Source: an uncultured Acetobacteraceae bacterium (lineage in GTDB: Bacteria; Pseudomonadota; Alphaproteobacteria; Acetobacterales; Acetobacteraceae). Taken from it: a DNA stretch of 64,000 nucleotides. Made by a program: the position numbers and the translations under genes. Below are positions 13,285-23,430 of this stretch, one piece after another. Location: assembly GCA_946476985.1 (NCBI GenBank), contig CAMKWS010000003.1, forward strand, positions 1 through 64,000. Reading direction: 5' to 3'. A model generated the notes under the pieces. It worked only from the letters and a program-made list of their open reading frames with translations. It was not told where the DNA came from and did not search any database. The stretch's first letter is position 1, and each line of letters begins with the position of its first letter.

Positions 13285-16134
13285 TCAGGCTCCTTTTACA
13301 ACTTCCGTCAATACCTTGGCGAGACGGTCTAACCCCTCTGCCAACGGCCCAATAATATGTACACGCAACGCACGACGCCCGCGGGAAGCAATTACATCAA
13401 AATCCCCACGAGCCTGAGCCGCTTTCACAATACCAAAGCTGTATGTATGGCCCGGAATTGTCAGATCAGCAGAATCATCTGCCGTTACCTGTAGGAACAC
13501 CCCACTATCAGGGCCCCCTTTATAAGCCTGCCCAGTTGAGTGAAGGAAGCGCGGCCCAAACTGGGCGGCGGTTGCCACATGTAGGCGGTCCCTCAACTCT
13601 GTCCTTACCTCTTGTTCCCAAGCGATATGAGCTGCGTTGCGCTCAATATAAGCTAGGAGGCCAATATAATCATTCTTACCCACGCGGTCAAAATGAGCCT
13701 TTAAGATTGCTTCAGCTGTTTCGCCTTTAAGAGCCTCTTGATTACGCTCATCAGCGTAAAAAGCAAGATTCCCATCAATCGCAAAAGGTGCCTCTGCTGG
13801 GAGCTTTCCAGTTTCTCCATAAGCTGCTGTCAACTTACGGGTCTCAACCTTACTAAACTCCACATCTGGTTGATCAAATGGATCAATCCCCAAAACAGAG
13901 CCTGCAATAGCTGTCGCAAATTCAAAGACGAAAAACGCCTGCACAATCTGCTCAACTGTTTCCAGATGCAGCGTCACGACAGGATGCCCTGCCTCGCGCA
14001 AAGCTTTTAAGCCCTGATCCACAGGCTCATGACCTAAACGCAGCTCCACGAATACACGGTCATCACCATAGAGATCAGGCGTGCCTAGAGGCTCACCATC
14101 AATGGGGATCAACCCTGTTCCCTGTTTGCCGGTACTCTCAGCAATAAGCTGCTCCAGCCAGGCCCCCAGAGAAGCAATCTCTTTAGACGCGACGAAGGTC
14201 ACTTTATCCCGCTGGAATCCCGTTGCCGCAACGCCTAATGCAAGGCCGAGCATCGCACCAGGGTTTGTGGATGGCGGGACAGATGCATCACAAGCTTGCA
14301 CCATCAAGCCTGCAGTTTCTAACAGCTTGCGCACATCATAGCCCGCAGCAGCAGCCGGTGTCAGACCAAAAGCTGAAAGAACAGAATAACGCCCACCAAT
14401 CTCTGGATTGCCAAAGAAGATATGCGCAAAACCACGCTCTTTTGCGGCACGTTCCAGAGCAGAGCCAGGGTCTGTCACCGCAACAAAACGCCCACCCGGC
14501 TCTTGCCCAAGAGCCTCCTGCGCTTGAGCCCAGAAATAATCCAATAAGATATTCGGCTCTAACGTGGAGCCAGACTTACTAGAAACGATGAATAATGTGT
14601 TCTTCAGATCTACAGCATGCGCGAATGTTGCCACCTGCTGTGGATCAGTACTATCCAACACATGCAGCTTAGGCCCGCCTGGAACTTGACCAAATGTTTC
14701 AGCCAATACCTCTGGCCCAAGGCTAGAGCCCCCCATGCCGAGCAGTAGAACATCTTTATAACCACGCTCTTTGACCTCACGGCCTAAAGCTTCATAGCCA
14801 GCGAGTGCCGCCATGCCGTCATCAACGGCACTCAGCCACCCAAGCCATTTGCTTTCTGGTCCATTGGTCCAAACAGAGGCATCCCGCTCCCAGATGCGGC
14901 GTATCTTCCCGTCACGGCTCCAGCTCTTGCCAGCTGCTACAACGGCATTATCCAATTCATCTGATAGGGCTAAGGATACTCGCATAAGACGTTCTCCTAA
15001 AACTGCTTCCCGGCGAGCTGCGACCGCACCGAGCAATCCATCAAAAGCAACTTCGAACGCCGCAACCCCTTCCTCCAGCAAGGAAGCTGTTACTCCTGCA
15101 AGATCCAGCCCCAAACGCTCCGCTTGGTTAAGGATGCGGCTCGATGCCTCTACATCCTCAACCAAGCGTGCTTCAGGAACGCCATGATCCCTAAAAGCCT
15201 CTAAGGTACGAGGAGGCAGCGTGTTTACTGTCGCCTCACCTATCAGTTCTTCGACATAAAGAACATCCCTATAAGCTTTATCTTTTATGCTCGTACTAGC
15301 CCAAAGCAAACGCTGCGTCTGCGCTCCTCGGGCCTCTAGGGCTTTCCAGCGTTCTCCAGAGACAACACTGAGATAGTGCTGGTATGCAATACGCGCATTA
15401 GCAATGGCCACTTTACCACGCAGAGCTTTCAGCTCGTCTGTGTTGGTATCTCCTGCCGCCACACGACGGTCGATGATGCCATCAATCTTGCCATCAATTC
15501 GACTGATGAAGAAAGAAGCCACACTCGCCACATGGCCCAAAGGCTCACCCTTAGCTGCGCGTGCTTCTAAACCACGCAGATAAGCCTCAAGAACTTTTTT
15601 GTAGCTCTCAAGCGAGAACAACAATGTGACGTTGATATTAATCCCTTCAGCGATGGCCTGCTCAATAGCTGGGATCGATTCTTCAGTCGCTGGAATCTTG
15701 ATCATCGCATTGGCGCAATTGACCGTCTTCCAAAGCCTACGAGCCTCTTCCAACGTGCCTTGGCCATCATAAGCAAGGTAAGGTGATACCTCGAGGCTCA
15801 CATAACCATCCCGCCCTTGCGTCTCATCAAACACAGGCTTCAGCACGGTACATGCTTTGCGGATATCCTCTACGGCGATCGTCTCGTAAAGCTCACCTGC
15901 TGTAAGGGGATTCTTACGCAGCAAGGCCTGCACGGCCTCCTCATACTCCGCCCCATGCCCAATGGCTTGTTCAAAAATCGCGGGGTTGGAGGTCACCCCT
16001 TTCAGGGCGTCCTCCTTTACCAATTTGGCTAAAGATCCATCCTCGATAAAATCACGCCGGATGAAGTCGAGCCAGATTGACTGACCATGACCAGCTAAAC
16101 GAGTTAGTGGTGTATCAGAAAAATGACTCCCCAT
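13285..16134 (-). CDS. tal-pgi: Bifunctional transaldolase/glucose-6-phosphate isomerase (fusion)
   Basis: N-terminal transaldolase ([59 protein letters not shown]) continuous with a C-terminal PGI ([39 protein letters not shown]). Confidence 0.95.
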
Positions 16135-16148
16135 AATCTTTCTCCGCC

Positions 16149-18242
16149 TTATGCGTTCAACAGACGCAGAGCCTGTTCGTAAACAGCCTCTACAGTGAAA
16201 CCGAATTTCGCCATAAGCTCCGCCGCAGAACCTGCAGCTCCAAAGCTATTCATCGCCATGATAGTGCCATCCAGCCCCACATAACGATCCCAGCCGAAAC
16301 TTGCTGCCATTTCTATACCGATACGCTTACGGACAGAAGGTGGCAGTACGGAATCACGATACGATTTGTCTTGTTTCTCAAATAGATCAAAGCTGGGCAT
16401 CGAGACCACGCGCACACGCACGCGCTGTGCCCGCAACTTATTATAAGCGCCCATCGCCAAAGCGACTTCAGAGCCCGAAGCCATAAGAATAATCTCTGGT
16501 TCAGTCTCACAATCAACCAAGACATACGCCCCACGCGCCACACCATCGGCTGCCCCACATAGGGAGCGATCAAATGTCGGCAAATTCTGACGACTTAGCG
16601 CAAGAGCTACAGGCCCTTGTGTATGCTCCATCGCCACACGCCAGCTTTCAACAACCTCATTCGCATCGGCTGGACGCAATAAAGTTATGCCCGGCGTTGC
16701 ACGCAATTGTGCAAATTGCTCAATCGGCTGGTGGGTCGGGCCATCCTCACCAACACCAATCGAATCATGTGTAAACACATAAATGACCGGCAGGTGCATC
16801 AACGCAGCGAGACGAATAGGCGCCTTCATATAATCTGAGAAGATCATAAAGCCCGAGCCAAAGGGACGCAGGCCGCTCAAAGCGAGTCCATTGCAAATCG
16901 CCCCCATGGCATGCTCTCGCACACCAAAATGGATATTCCGCCCATCATAACGACCAGGAGCCGCATCACCGTTGGATGGTGCCTGCAAAGAATCTGCCCC
17001 CTTAATGTGAGTCTTGGTTGAAGGTGCGAGATCAGCAGCACCACCAATCATCCAAGGGATATTCTTTGCAACAGCATTCAACACCTCACCAGAACTCTGG
17101 CGAGAGGCAATGCCTTTCTCATCAGCCGGATACACCGGCAGATCACAATCCCACCCTTCTGGCAGAGTACCCGCAAAGATATGCTTCAGCTCTTCACCTT
17201 CCTGCGGATATTCTACGCAATAAGCAGCGAATTGCTCTTCCCATTTCTTCTGCGCTTCTGCACCACGGCGACCAGAAAGCTCAGCAAAATGCTCCTTTAC
17301 CCCTTTAGGAACGGTAAAGGCTTCAGCATCTTCCGGCCAACCATAGGCCTGCTTCGCTCCTATAATTTCATTTGCCCCTAGCGGTTCGCCATGGGCAGAC
17401 GCCGTACCAGCTTTATTAGGCGCACCATAACCAATCACTGTTTTGAGGATGATTAATGTCGGCCGTGAAGTTTCCTCACGCCCTTTCTGTAAGGCATCAC
17501 GAATAGCCTCAACATCATTTCCATCTTCAACCTCTAAAACATGCCAGCCATACGCTTTAAAGCGAAGGCCGACATCCTCTGTGAAGGCGACATTCGTAGA
17601 TCCCTCAATAGAGATCTGATTGCTATCATACACCCATGTCAGATTACCGAGCTTGAGATGCCCCGCAACAGAAGCTGCCTCACCAGAGACTCCTTCCATC
17701 ACATCACCATCTCCGCAGAAGGCCGTGACATGATAGCCAAATAGATCAAACCCTGGCCGGCCATATCGGCTCGCAAGCCAACGTTCTGCCATTGCCATAC
17801 CAACAGCGCTGCTACAGCCCTGCCCTAGAGGGCCAGTGGTGATCTCCACTCCTGCCGTATGCCCATATTCTGGATGCCCAGGCGCCCGCGACCCAAGGCG
17901 GCGGAAATTCTTAATATCATCCAGCGTTAAAGCGGGACGATTCACCGCACGGCCATCCTCGACATCCTGCACATCTGCAAGAAACAATGTGGCGTAAAGC
18001 AGGATGGACGCATGTCCACCCGAGAGAATAAATCGATCACGCCCCGGCCAAAAGGGATCGGCCGGATTATAATACATTGTAAACTGCCAATAAGCATACA
18101 TAGCTGGTGCTAGAGCCATTGCGGTACCCGGATGGCCGGATTTTGCGCGCTCCACACCATCCATCACTAATGTGCGAATAGTGTCTATGCTTAGTTTCGA
18201 CAGCATGCTGTTCACTGATTTAACATCCTTAAGTAAAGCCAT
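16149..18242 (-). CDS. tkt: Transketolase (start placed at MALLKDVK; the ORF track extends to 18341)
   Basis: RAKSGHPGTAMALAPAMYAYWQFTMYYNPADPFWPGRDRFILSGGHAS; TGPLGQGCSSAVGMAMAERWLA; FTHDSIGVGEDGPTHQPIEQFAQLRATPG. Confidence 0.95.
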   Translation of the reverse strand: MALLKDVKSVNSMLSKLSIDTIRTLVMDGVERAKSGHPGTAMALAPAMYAYWQFTMYYNPADPFWPGRDRFILSGGHASILLYATLFLADVQDVEDGRAVNRPALTLDDIKNFRRLGSRAPGHPEYGHTAGVEITTGPLGQGCSSAVGMAMAERWLASRYGRPGFDLFGYHVTAFCGDGDVMEGVSGEAASVAGHLKLGNLTWVYDSNQISIEGSTNVAFTEDVGLRFKAYGWHVLEVEDGNDVEAIRDALQKGREETSRPTLIILKTVIGYGAPNKAGTASAHGEPLGANEIIGAKQAYGWPEDAEAFTVPKGVKEHFAELSGRRGAEAQKKWEEQFAAYCVEYPQEGEELKHIFAGTLPEGWDCDLPVYPADEKGIASRQSSGEVLNAVAKNIPWMIGGAADLAPSTKTHIKGADSLQAPSNGDAAPGRYDGRNIHFGVREHAMGAICNGLALSGLRPFGSGFMIFSDYMKAPIRLAALMHLPVIYVFTHDSIGVGEDGPTHQPIEQFAQLRATPGITLLRPADANEVVESWRVAMEHTQGPVALALSRQNLPTFDRSLCGAADGVARGAYVLVDCETEPEIILMASGSEVALAMGAYNKLRAQRVRVRVVSMPSFDLFEKQDKSYRDSVLPPSVRKRIGIEMAASFGWDRYVGLDGTIMAMNSFGAAGSAAELMAKFGFTVEAVYEQALRLLNA

Positions 18243-18483
18243 TGTCCGGTCACCTTTGGCTGGCTTAATGCCCCTTAACATGGCCCGCCTCAGCCCAGAC
18301 CTCTCACAAGTGGCCTTATACAGCGGCGGACGCAATGCCAAAACTCACAGAAAACAGGAAAATCTGTTTATCTGACGTACTTTTCTTCCCCTAACAGACA
18401 AAAATAAAAAACTTCCTAACAGCTCCCTACCTATCTTCACCGTCCTATGAGTTCGTCGCATAGCGCCCCTGAAAAAAGCTCTT

Positions 18484-21963: not shown

Positions 21964-22665
21964 CTGCTCATACGTCCTCCCCCGTTATCAGGGGAGGATC
22001 ATATGCACTGACATACCTATCCACGCTTAAAATCTATATTTCTTCATATCTTCCTTTGCCCACGAAAAAGCCGCTGCCTCCGCTCAATCCTCCAAACTAT
22101 ACTTGGAAAGAGCATGACCTCTGAATGTTTAACTTCAGATAAAGGAATAAGGCGTCGCGCACCCTTCTCCCAAAAAAATTCTACGATTCGAGACAAGAGA
22201 TATGAGCGTGAATGGTTAAAATCTAACAAAAACTTATCTTAAACTTAAAAAAGTGTTATCAAAATTTACGAAAATAGGCACATCACGTATAGATGATATT
22301 TAATAATATACGGTTCATTACCTTTATTAAGTATCACTTACACAACTATTTTTTATTAGTAACAAATTAATGATAAAATTAAATTAATTTTTACGTCAAT
22401 TAATCAAAATAATGATTAAATATAAAAAAAATTAAATATAAACAAAAAAATTAATAATATCATAATTATTCAATATATGTTCAAAACATACAAAATAAAC
22501 CCTAAGTATGACATAAAAAAAGCCACATAAAAACACAAAAGCGCCACAAAGTATCAAAAGAATATAACATACCTTTGGTTGTATAAATTACTCAAAAAAC
22601 AATCACAGGTTGCATTTATCTGAAAGAAATTTTCTAATCATGCTCCGATTAAGGGAGTTGGAATT

Positions 22666-23430
22666 ATGCGTATCCTCATCGCTGATAACGACAGCGCCAC
22701 AACTGATTATCTCGTAAAAGTACTAACCAAGTACTCTTACACAGTGGACCACGTAAAAACGGCCAAAGATGCTGTCGATATGTTTAAGCACTATGAGTAT
22801 GACCTATTCATTACTGAATTATCATTCCCTGATATGATGGGGGACGATGTCATTCGGCAAATCAGAAGAGCCCAAATTTCGACACCAATTATGGTCATCT
22901 CTCACAGGACAGATCCCCATACAAAGGTGGCGGCTTTTTCTGCTGGAGCAGATGATTACGTCACAAAACCATTCGACATCAATGAAGCTCAGGCACGTAT
23001 CCAGGCTCTCACCCGCCGTGCCTATGGTATCTCTGAACCTCGCTTACGCGTTGGACCATTAGAGCTCGACCTAGAAAGCCGCATGGTTAGCATTAACGGG
23101 CACTTCCTCCAACTAACGAGTAAGGAATACTCTATCCTAGAGCTCCTTCTCCTTCGCAAAGGGGCTGTGCTTACAAAGGATATGTTCCTCAATCATCTCT
23201 ATGGCGGCATTGACGAGCCTGAGATGAAAATCATTGATGTGTTCATTTGTAAACTACGCCGTAAATTACAACGCTACGGTGCAGACCAAATGATCACAAC
23301 TGTATGGGGCCGTGGATATATTTTACAGGAGCCCGCAACAGTTAACAACAATACACCACTACCGGACAACCAACAGCCTCTTACGGTTCCCCCTACAGGG
23401 GCGCCAGCGCCTCTCCAGCAAGCCGGTTAA
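22666..23430 (+). CDS. ctrA: CtrA-like OmpR-family response regulator with Glu at the phospho-acceptor position
   Basis: C-terminal LTSKEYSILELLLLRKGAVLTKDMFLNHLYGGIDEPEMKIIDVFICKLRRKLQ..TVWGRGYIL is diagnostic of CtrA. Receiver has E51 (GAA at 22816-22818) in DLFITELSFPDMMG. Confidence 0.87.
   Translation: MRILIADNDSATTDYLVKVLTKYSYTVDHVKTAKDAVDMFKHYEYDLFITELSFPDMMGDDVIRQIRRAQISTPIMVISHRTDPHTKVAAFSAGADDYVTKPFDINEAQARIQALTRRAYGISEPRLRVGPLELDLESRMVSINGHFLQLTSKEYSILELLLLRKGAVLTKDMFLNHLYGGIDEPEMKIIDVFICKLRRKLQRYGADQMITTVWGRGYILQEPATVNNNTPLPDNQQPLTVPPTGAPAPLQQAG

Follow-up and report, generated by a model that had tools for sequence, protein, structure and literature searches.

The open reading frame at 22,666–23,430 of an Acetobacteraceae DNA stretch of 64,000 nucleotides (hereafter the window) encodes a relative of the cell-cycle regulator CtrA with Glu at the position of the phospho-acceptor Asp51. 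In CtrA, D51E is the standard laboratory change that makes the protein kinase-independent. The question raised by this locus is whether the same change occurs here as a natural and stable property of CtrA, and what then became of the CckA-ChpT phosphorelay and of the receiver domain that it addresses.

Identity and domain structure of the window protein

The coding region and the residues on which the argument depends were located as follows.

22666–23430, forward strand: intact ctrA orthologue of 254 residues with zero internal stops; best family CtrA, sole CtrA of the genome.
22672–23019, forward strand: pseudo-receiver domain, residues 3–118 (Pfam Response_reg at residues 3–112, 84 bits; full receiver fold in the AlphaFold2 model).
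22687–22689, forward strand: codon 8, Asn replacing the pocket Asp, which is present in 56/56 sequences with Asp51 and ChpT vs 1/56 Glu51 sequences.
22690–22692, forward strand: codon 9, Asp kept, as in 53/56 Glu51 sequences.
22816–22818, forward strand: codon 51 (GAA), Glu replacing the phospho-acceptor Asp, from the sequence and its alignment to relatives.
22900–22902, forward strand: codon 79, conserved beta4 Ser, kept in 54/56 Glu51 sequences.
22966–22968, forward strand: codon 101, conserved beta5 Lys (50 Lys and 6 Arg among 56 Glu51 sequences).
23107–23325, forward strand: winged-helix DNA-binding domain, residues 148–220 (Pfam Trans_reg_C, OmpR-type), with the nearly invariant recognition region MKIIDVFICKLRRKL.

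In the AlphaFold2 model of the window CtrA the receiver and winged-helix elements were complete, the receiver elements stood in order with a pLDDT of about 90, and a disordered tail began at residue 225. With the receiver fold kept and the acceptor Asp absent, the domain is a pseudo-receiver.

The original prediction had placed Glu at residue 51, the changes E7D and D8N in the acidic pocket, a conserved Lys and beta4 Ser, and a CtrA signature in the DNA-binding half. All of these were borne out: the codon was read directly, residues 7–9 are D-N-D (Asp9 being kept), the Lys and Ser are K101 and S79, and the DNA-recognition signature FLNHLYGGIDEPEMKIIDVFICKLRRKL was nearly invariant in 27 relatives. 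When more than 200 relatives were aligned, residue 51 fell in the acceptor column and no competing Asp was found. A base-calling error at codon 51 was excluded, because dozens of independently sequenced relatives carry Glu there (GAA or GAG).

The best NCBIfam match of the protein was CtrA (NF045991), end to end with 285 bits, the next family reaching 164 bits. This model is built around Rhodobacter CtrA and its curated equivalog cut-off of 350 bits was not reached by the window CtrA; among relatives, one with Asp51 from Acetobacteraceae scored 381 bits and a Gluconobacter CtrA 326 bits. Since the score lies below the cut-off of a Rhodobacter-centred model, the label "canonical CtrA" is not claimed. 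In the tree the protein clustered with the CtrA of Acetobacteraceae, separate from the paralogue clade, and it is a CtrA by descent and probably a pseudo-receiver regulator by mechanism.

The window genome has a size of 1.88 Mb and an estimated completeness of 100%, and belongs to the genus of Bombella dulcis (same genus group as genome G032). No second CtrA was found in it, the next OmpR-type matches being about 30% identical. As the genome has no other CtrA orthologue, the suggestion that the protein could be a non-phosphorylated paralogue was not supported. The search for a second CtrA with Asp51 gave none, and the sole other CtrA-like protein, L004 (268 aa; L004:1369–2175, on C7 of the same genome), also lacks the acceptor Asp. 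L004 is a CtrA-like OmpR regulator located directly upstream of fliL, without a Pfam-detectable receiver. Judged by this context, it is possibly a flagellar regulator of the Rem/FtcR type, alphaproteobacterial OmpR regulators with pseudo-receivers that it resembles; the window protein, in contrast, is CtrA by sequence and tree. Paralogues with degenerate receivers like that of L004 were also observed in other Acetobacteraceae (L180, L182, L183 and L187).

Distribution of residue 51 and of the CckA-ChpT relay

The family sample comprised 150 Acetobacteraceae genomes. At residue 51, the 99 orthologues that the tree included had Asp (70), Glu (26), Ala (2) or an unreadable position (1). Glu51 was found in most Bombella species and in Saccharibacter, Asaia, Gluconobacter, Neokomagataea, Swaminathania, Brytella, Acidomonas and Tanticharoenia, Ala51 in Parasaccharibacter apium, B. 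saccharophila, Bombella ESL0385 and B. dulcis, and Asp51 in most other Acetobacteraceae and in Rhodospirillales MAGs. Every acetic acid bacterium named here had either Glu51 or Ala51. The Glu51 of the window CtrA is no error and is not private to this genome; the scope of the original prediction was too narrow, since the change is lineage-wide. In a class-wide sample of 69 alphaproteobacterial CtrAs, nearly all from different families, Asp8, Asp9 and Asp51 were all present in 67, and the other two had Glu51 plus loss of Asp8. These two (L283 and L294, of G238 and G237) represent two other families, with genome sizes of 1.1 and 1.2 Mb, and Glu51 is apparently an independent recurrence there.

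Four genomes of the family sample, from two genera, gave no CtrA match at an E-value of 1e-40, as if CtrA had been lost or much changed; completeness was 98–100% for three of them (G029, G116 and G077) and 85% for G144. The ctrA of Bombella dulcis (L052:3001–3760) has Ala51 and a frameshift near codon 95, and the ctrA stretch on the G032 contig is identical to it. The frameshift could mark a pseudogene or could stem from a fault in the assembly.

ChpT was searched for with a profile built from Acetobacteraceae (A1), for which true ChpT scored at least 75 bits and the kinase background at most 43 bits. At 75 bits or more, ChpT was present in 88 of the 150 genomes of the family sample; with this profile it was found neither in the window genome nor in any of 26 named acetic acid bacteria. 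In the cross-table, the genomes of 27 of the 28 Glu51/Ala51 orthologues had no ChpT, the exception being the MAG G133. For the CckA profile (A2), clear orthologues scored about 374 bits and above and the next matches 350–367 bits, a gap less sharp than that of ChpT; no Glu51/Ala51 genome had a match in the clear range. The window genome had no CckA orthologue, its best match with this profile (E 4.5e-50) being far under the clear range. A weak PF10090 match in the same genome was rejected as ChpT, as it falls on the kinase portion of a REC-HisKA-HATPase protein. Histidine kinases remain in the genome, e.g., the REC-HisKA-HATPase protein at C5:34241. SciP (PF06627) was absent from the window genome and GcrA was present.

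These searches agreed with the part of the original prediction that proposed a CtrA lacking a usable normal phospho-site and uncoupled from CckA-ChpT. A canonical phospho-CtrA carries Asp51 with an Asp8/Asp9 pocket and is accompanied by CckA and ChpT; the window CtrA has Glu51 and Asn8, and its genome encodes neither ChpT nor a clear CckA.

Thirteen Asp51 orthologues were also from genomes without ChpT. The loss of Asp51 is therefore not an automatic outcome of relay loss, and relay loss appears to have come first and acceptor loss after it. An independent-pairs test of Glu51 against ChpT loss had too few contrasts for significance.

Constraint on the receiver, origins of Glu51 and the upstream region

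Among 56 distinct Glu51 sequences, Asp8 survived in a single one (mostly replaced by Ser) and Pro55 in seven. The residues of the alpha4-beta5-alpha5 region, which make up the dimerisation surface in OmpR/PhoB regulators, were almost invariant in the same sequences: K87 was kept in 53, E107 in 55, and D96, D97, R111, R117 and R118 in all 56. The receiver diverged faster than the DNA-binding half, which is among the most conserved stretches (mean dN within Bombella 0.124 vs 0.029). Nevertheless, receiver omega within Bombella was about 0.04–0.17 where dS could be estimated. The receiver thus remains under purifying selection, but not for a role in phosphotransfer.

The change from Asp to Glu had at least five origins on the available trees: in the acetic acid bacteria, in G081/G146, in G133 and in the two other families. 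Two of the eight nonsynonymous single-base changes from GAY yield Glu, so that the chance of five Glu in five changes is near 0.001 by hand arithmetic with mutation bias ignored; a possible direct change from Asp to Ala (G001) softens this figure to about 0.005. Ala51 came after Glu51 in several Bombella-group species. Asp51 was nested among Glu51 rows of the tree twice (G046/G126 and G060), in what are apparent reversions.

Two elements were recognised before the start codon of the window gene.

22651–22657, forward strand: likely ribosome-binding site AAGGGAG, conserved in Bombella.
22577–22615, forward strand: conserved promoter block GGTTGTA ... ACAATC-N3-GGTTGCAT, aligned in 12 loci of the Bombella/Saccharibacter group.

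Most of these loci have a second GGTTGYA at equal distance from the start codon. The GGTTGYA repeats and the ACAATC block are common to Bombella, Saccharibacter and, in part, strain ESL0709. In the 150 bases before the Bombella dulcis ctrA (L052) the block has GGTTTCAT, nearly all relatives having GGTTGCAT. GANTC was absent from the 300 bases upstream of the window ctrA, and control of this gene by CcrM was rejected. In the window as a whole GANTC was under half of expectation (92 observed vs 207 expected), a depletion that would fit a surviving CcrM-type methyltransferase. No full CtrA box (TTAA-N7-TTAA) was found upstream of ctrA, and the genome was not enriched in full boxes (36 sites vs 45 in the reversed control), so that box enrichment was rejected as evidence of a regulon. 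Elsewhere in the window, a 949-aa open reading frame (13285–16134, reverse strand) resembles, when read by eye, transaldolase and glucose-6-phosphate isomerase fused into one protein, and is adjoined by a transketolase frame (16149–18341).

Proposed mechanism, alternatives and relation to known systems

The sole CtrA of this genome has probably become a phosphorylation-independent DNA-binding dimer with a pseudo-receiver, uncoupled from CckA-ChpT and with its output set by amount. According to this reading, the CckA-ChpT phosphorelay would have disappeared in the ancestor of the acetic acid bacteria or close to it, and Asp51 would have been changed to Glu and the pocket Asp8 to Ser or Asn. With both residues replaced, phosphorylation at the normal site would no longer be possible. 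The active conformation would be favoured by Glu51, by S79 and K101, which are still present, and by an unimpaired alpha4-beta5-alpha5 face; CtrA would dimerise and bind DNA without phosphate. Its output would be governed by its amount, through transcription (with the promoter block conserved in the Bombella/Saccharibacter group) and turnover, with no kinase involved. A wider account is plausible, if not quite probable: that the acetic acid bacteria dismantled the relay and hard-wired its output, with loss of CckA-ChpT, next a phosphomimetic Glu, later Ala in some bee symbionts, and a broken or lost CtrA in places.

The description of this CtrA as constitutively active through a D51E phosphomimetic, as originally suggested, is perhaps too strong. 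That Glu51 itself keeps CtrA on is only partly supported, in view of the Ala51 species and the apparent Asp51 reversions; as the receiver of the Ala51 relatives is under purifying selection and Asp51 is nested twice among Glu51 rows, the Glu charge is not indispensable.

The same observations bear on the view that the receiver has been drifting under relaxed constraint since the relay was lost, that Glu51 has no special role and that CtrA is heading for loss. The faster divergence of the receiver, the succession of Ala51 after Glu51, the reappearance of Asp51 inside Glu51 groups, the frameshifted gene of B. dulcis and the four genomes without a CtrA-like match would all fit it, but a receiver omega well below 1, a nearly invariant dimer face, the strong conservation of the DNA-binding half and the recurrence of Asp to Glu in at least five lineages make it unlikely. 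Selection on the receiver would also be in line with a structural need for an acidic residue 51 (Asp or Glu) in a protein whose receiver is the target of a switching ligand, protein partner or protease. Glu is the residue of most CtrAs that lack Asp51, the nested reversions go to Asp, and Agrobacterium Rem, a pseudo-receiver regulator, is inhibited by its partner MirA (PMC12632262); however, SciP is absent and the Ala51 species keep an intact gene, and this explanation is considered quite improbable. Phosphorylation of CtrA at a different residue by another histidine kinase or phosphotransferase is very hard to reconcile with the joint loss of the acceptor Asp and Asp8 in 55 of 56 sequences and with sister species carrying Ala51, even though histidine kinases remain in the genome and substitute phosphotransferases were suggested for the order by Brilli et al. 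2010 (PMC2877005).

The preferred reading, a phosphorylation-independent CtrA, has several known counterparts. Caulobacter CtrA is an orthologue with a shared DNA-recognition region, and its engineered D51E form carries the identical residue change; D51E and D51A have also been used in Rhodobacter capsulatus CtrA (PMC6363796). Here, in contrast to the engineered Caulobacter protein, the change is natural, fixed in a lineage and accompanied by the disappearance of both Asp8 and CckA-ChpT. The OmpR/PhoB-type regulator ChxR of Chlamydia trachomatis dimerises and binds DNA unphosphorylated (PMC3960148), but it is not a CtrA orthologue, and its activity was measured, whereas that of the window CtrA is inferred. 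Bacterial pseudo-receivers share the receiver fold without the acceptor Asp; many dimerise unphosphorylated, mostly via parts of alpha4-beta5-alpha5, Glu is the commonest acceptor replacement in aspartate-less receivers, and replacing the acceptor does not always alter activity (PMC12632262). That review uses neither CtrA nor alphaproteobacteria as a term; the present case differs in that a conserved cell-cycle master regulator changed together with its relay.

The loss of chpT and the partial loss of ctrA in Rhodospirillales are known (Brilli et al. 2010, PMC2877005; Tomasch et al. 2021, PMC8116508), and the acceptor residue is not mentioned in the available portions of these reports. Brilli et al. 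scored cckA as present in Rhodospirillales and left substitute phosphotransferases open (PMC2877005), whereas the profile searches performed here gave no clear CckA in Glu51 genomes; Glu51 with the pocket change would make such phosphotransferases unnecessary. No description of an acceptor replacement in acetic acid bacteria was found in the accessible text of the open, non-subscription literature, in which relay degeneration in the order is already known and the acceptor substitution appears undescribed.

Evolution appears here to have fixed the laboratory D51E change across a group of industrially and ecologically important bacteria, with recurrence elsewhere. The lack of chpT in Rhodospirillales, noted long ago, can also be read in this light. 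Models of the network in which CckA-ChpT controls CtrA should not be transferred to acetic acid bacteria. Close relatives with Asp, Glu, Ala or a broken ctrA form a set in which one can ask whether the output of a phosphorelay can be hard-wired, what then controls CtrA, and whether its activity depends on mimicry by Glu or on the dimer face. If the proposal is true, this series shows a master regulator in conversion from a kinase-driven to an amount-driven switch.
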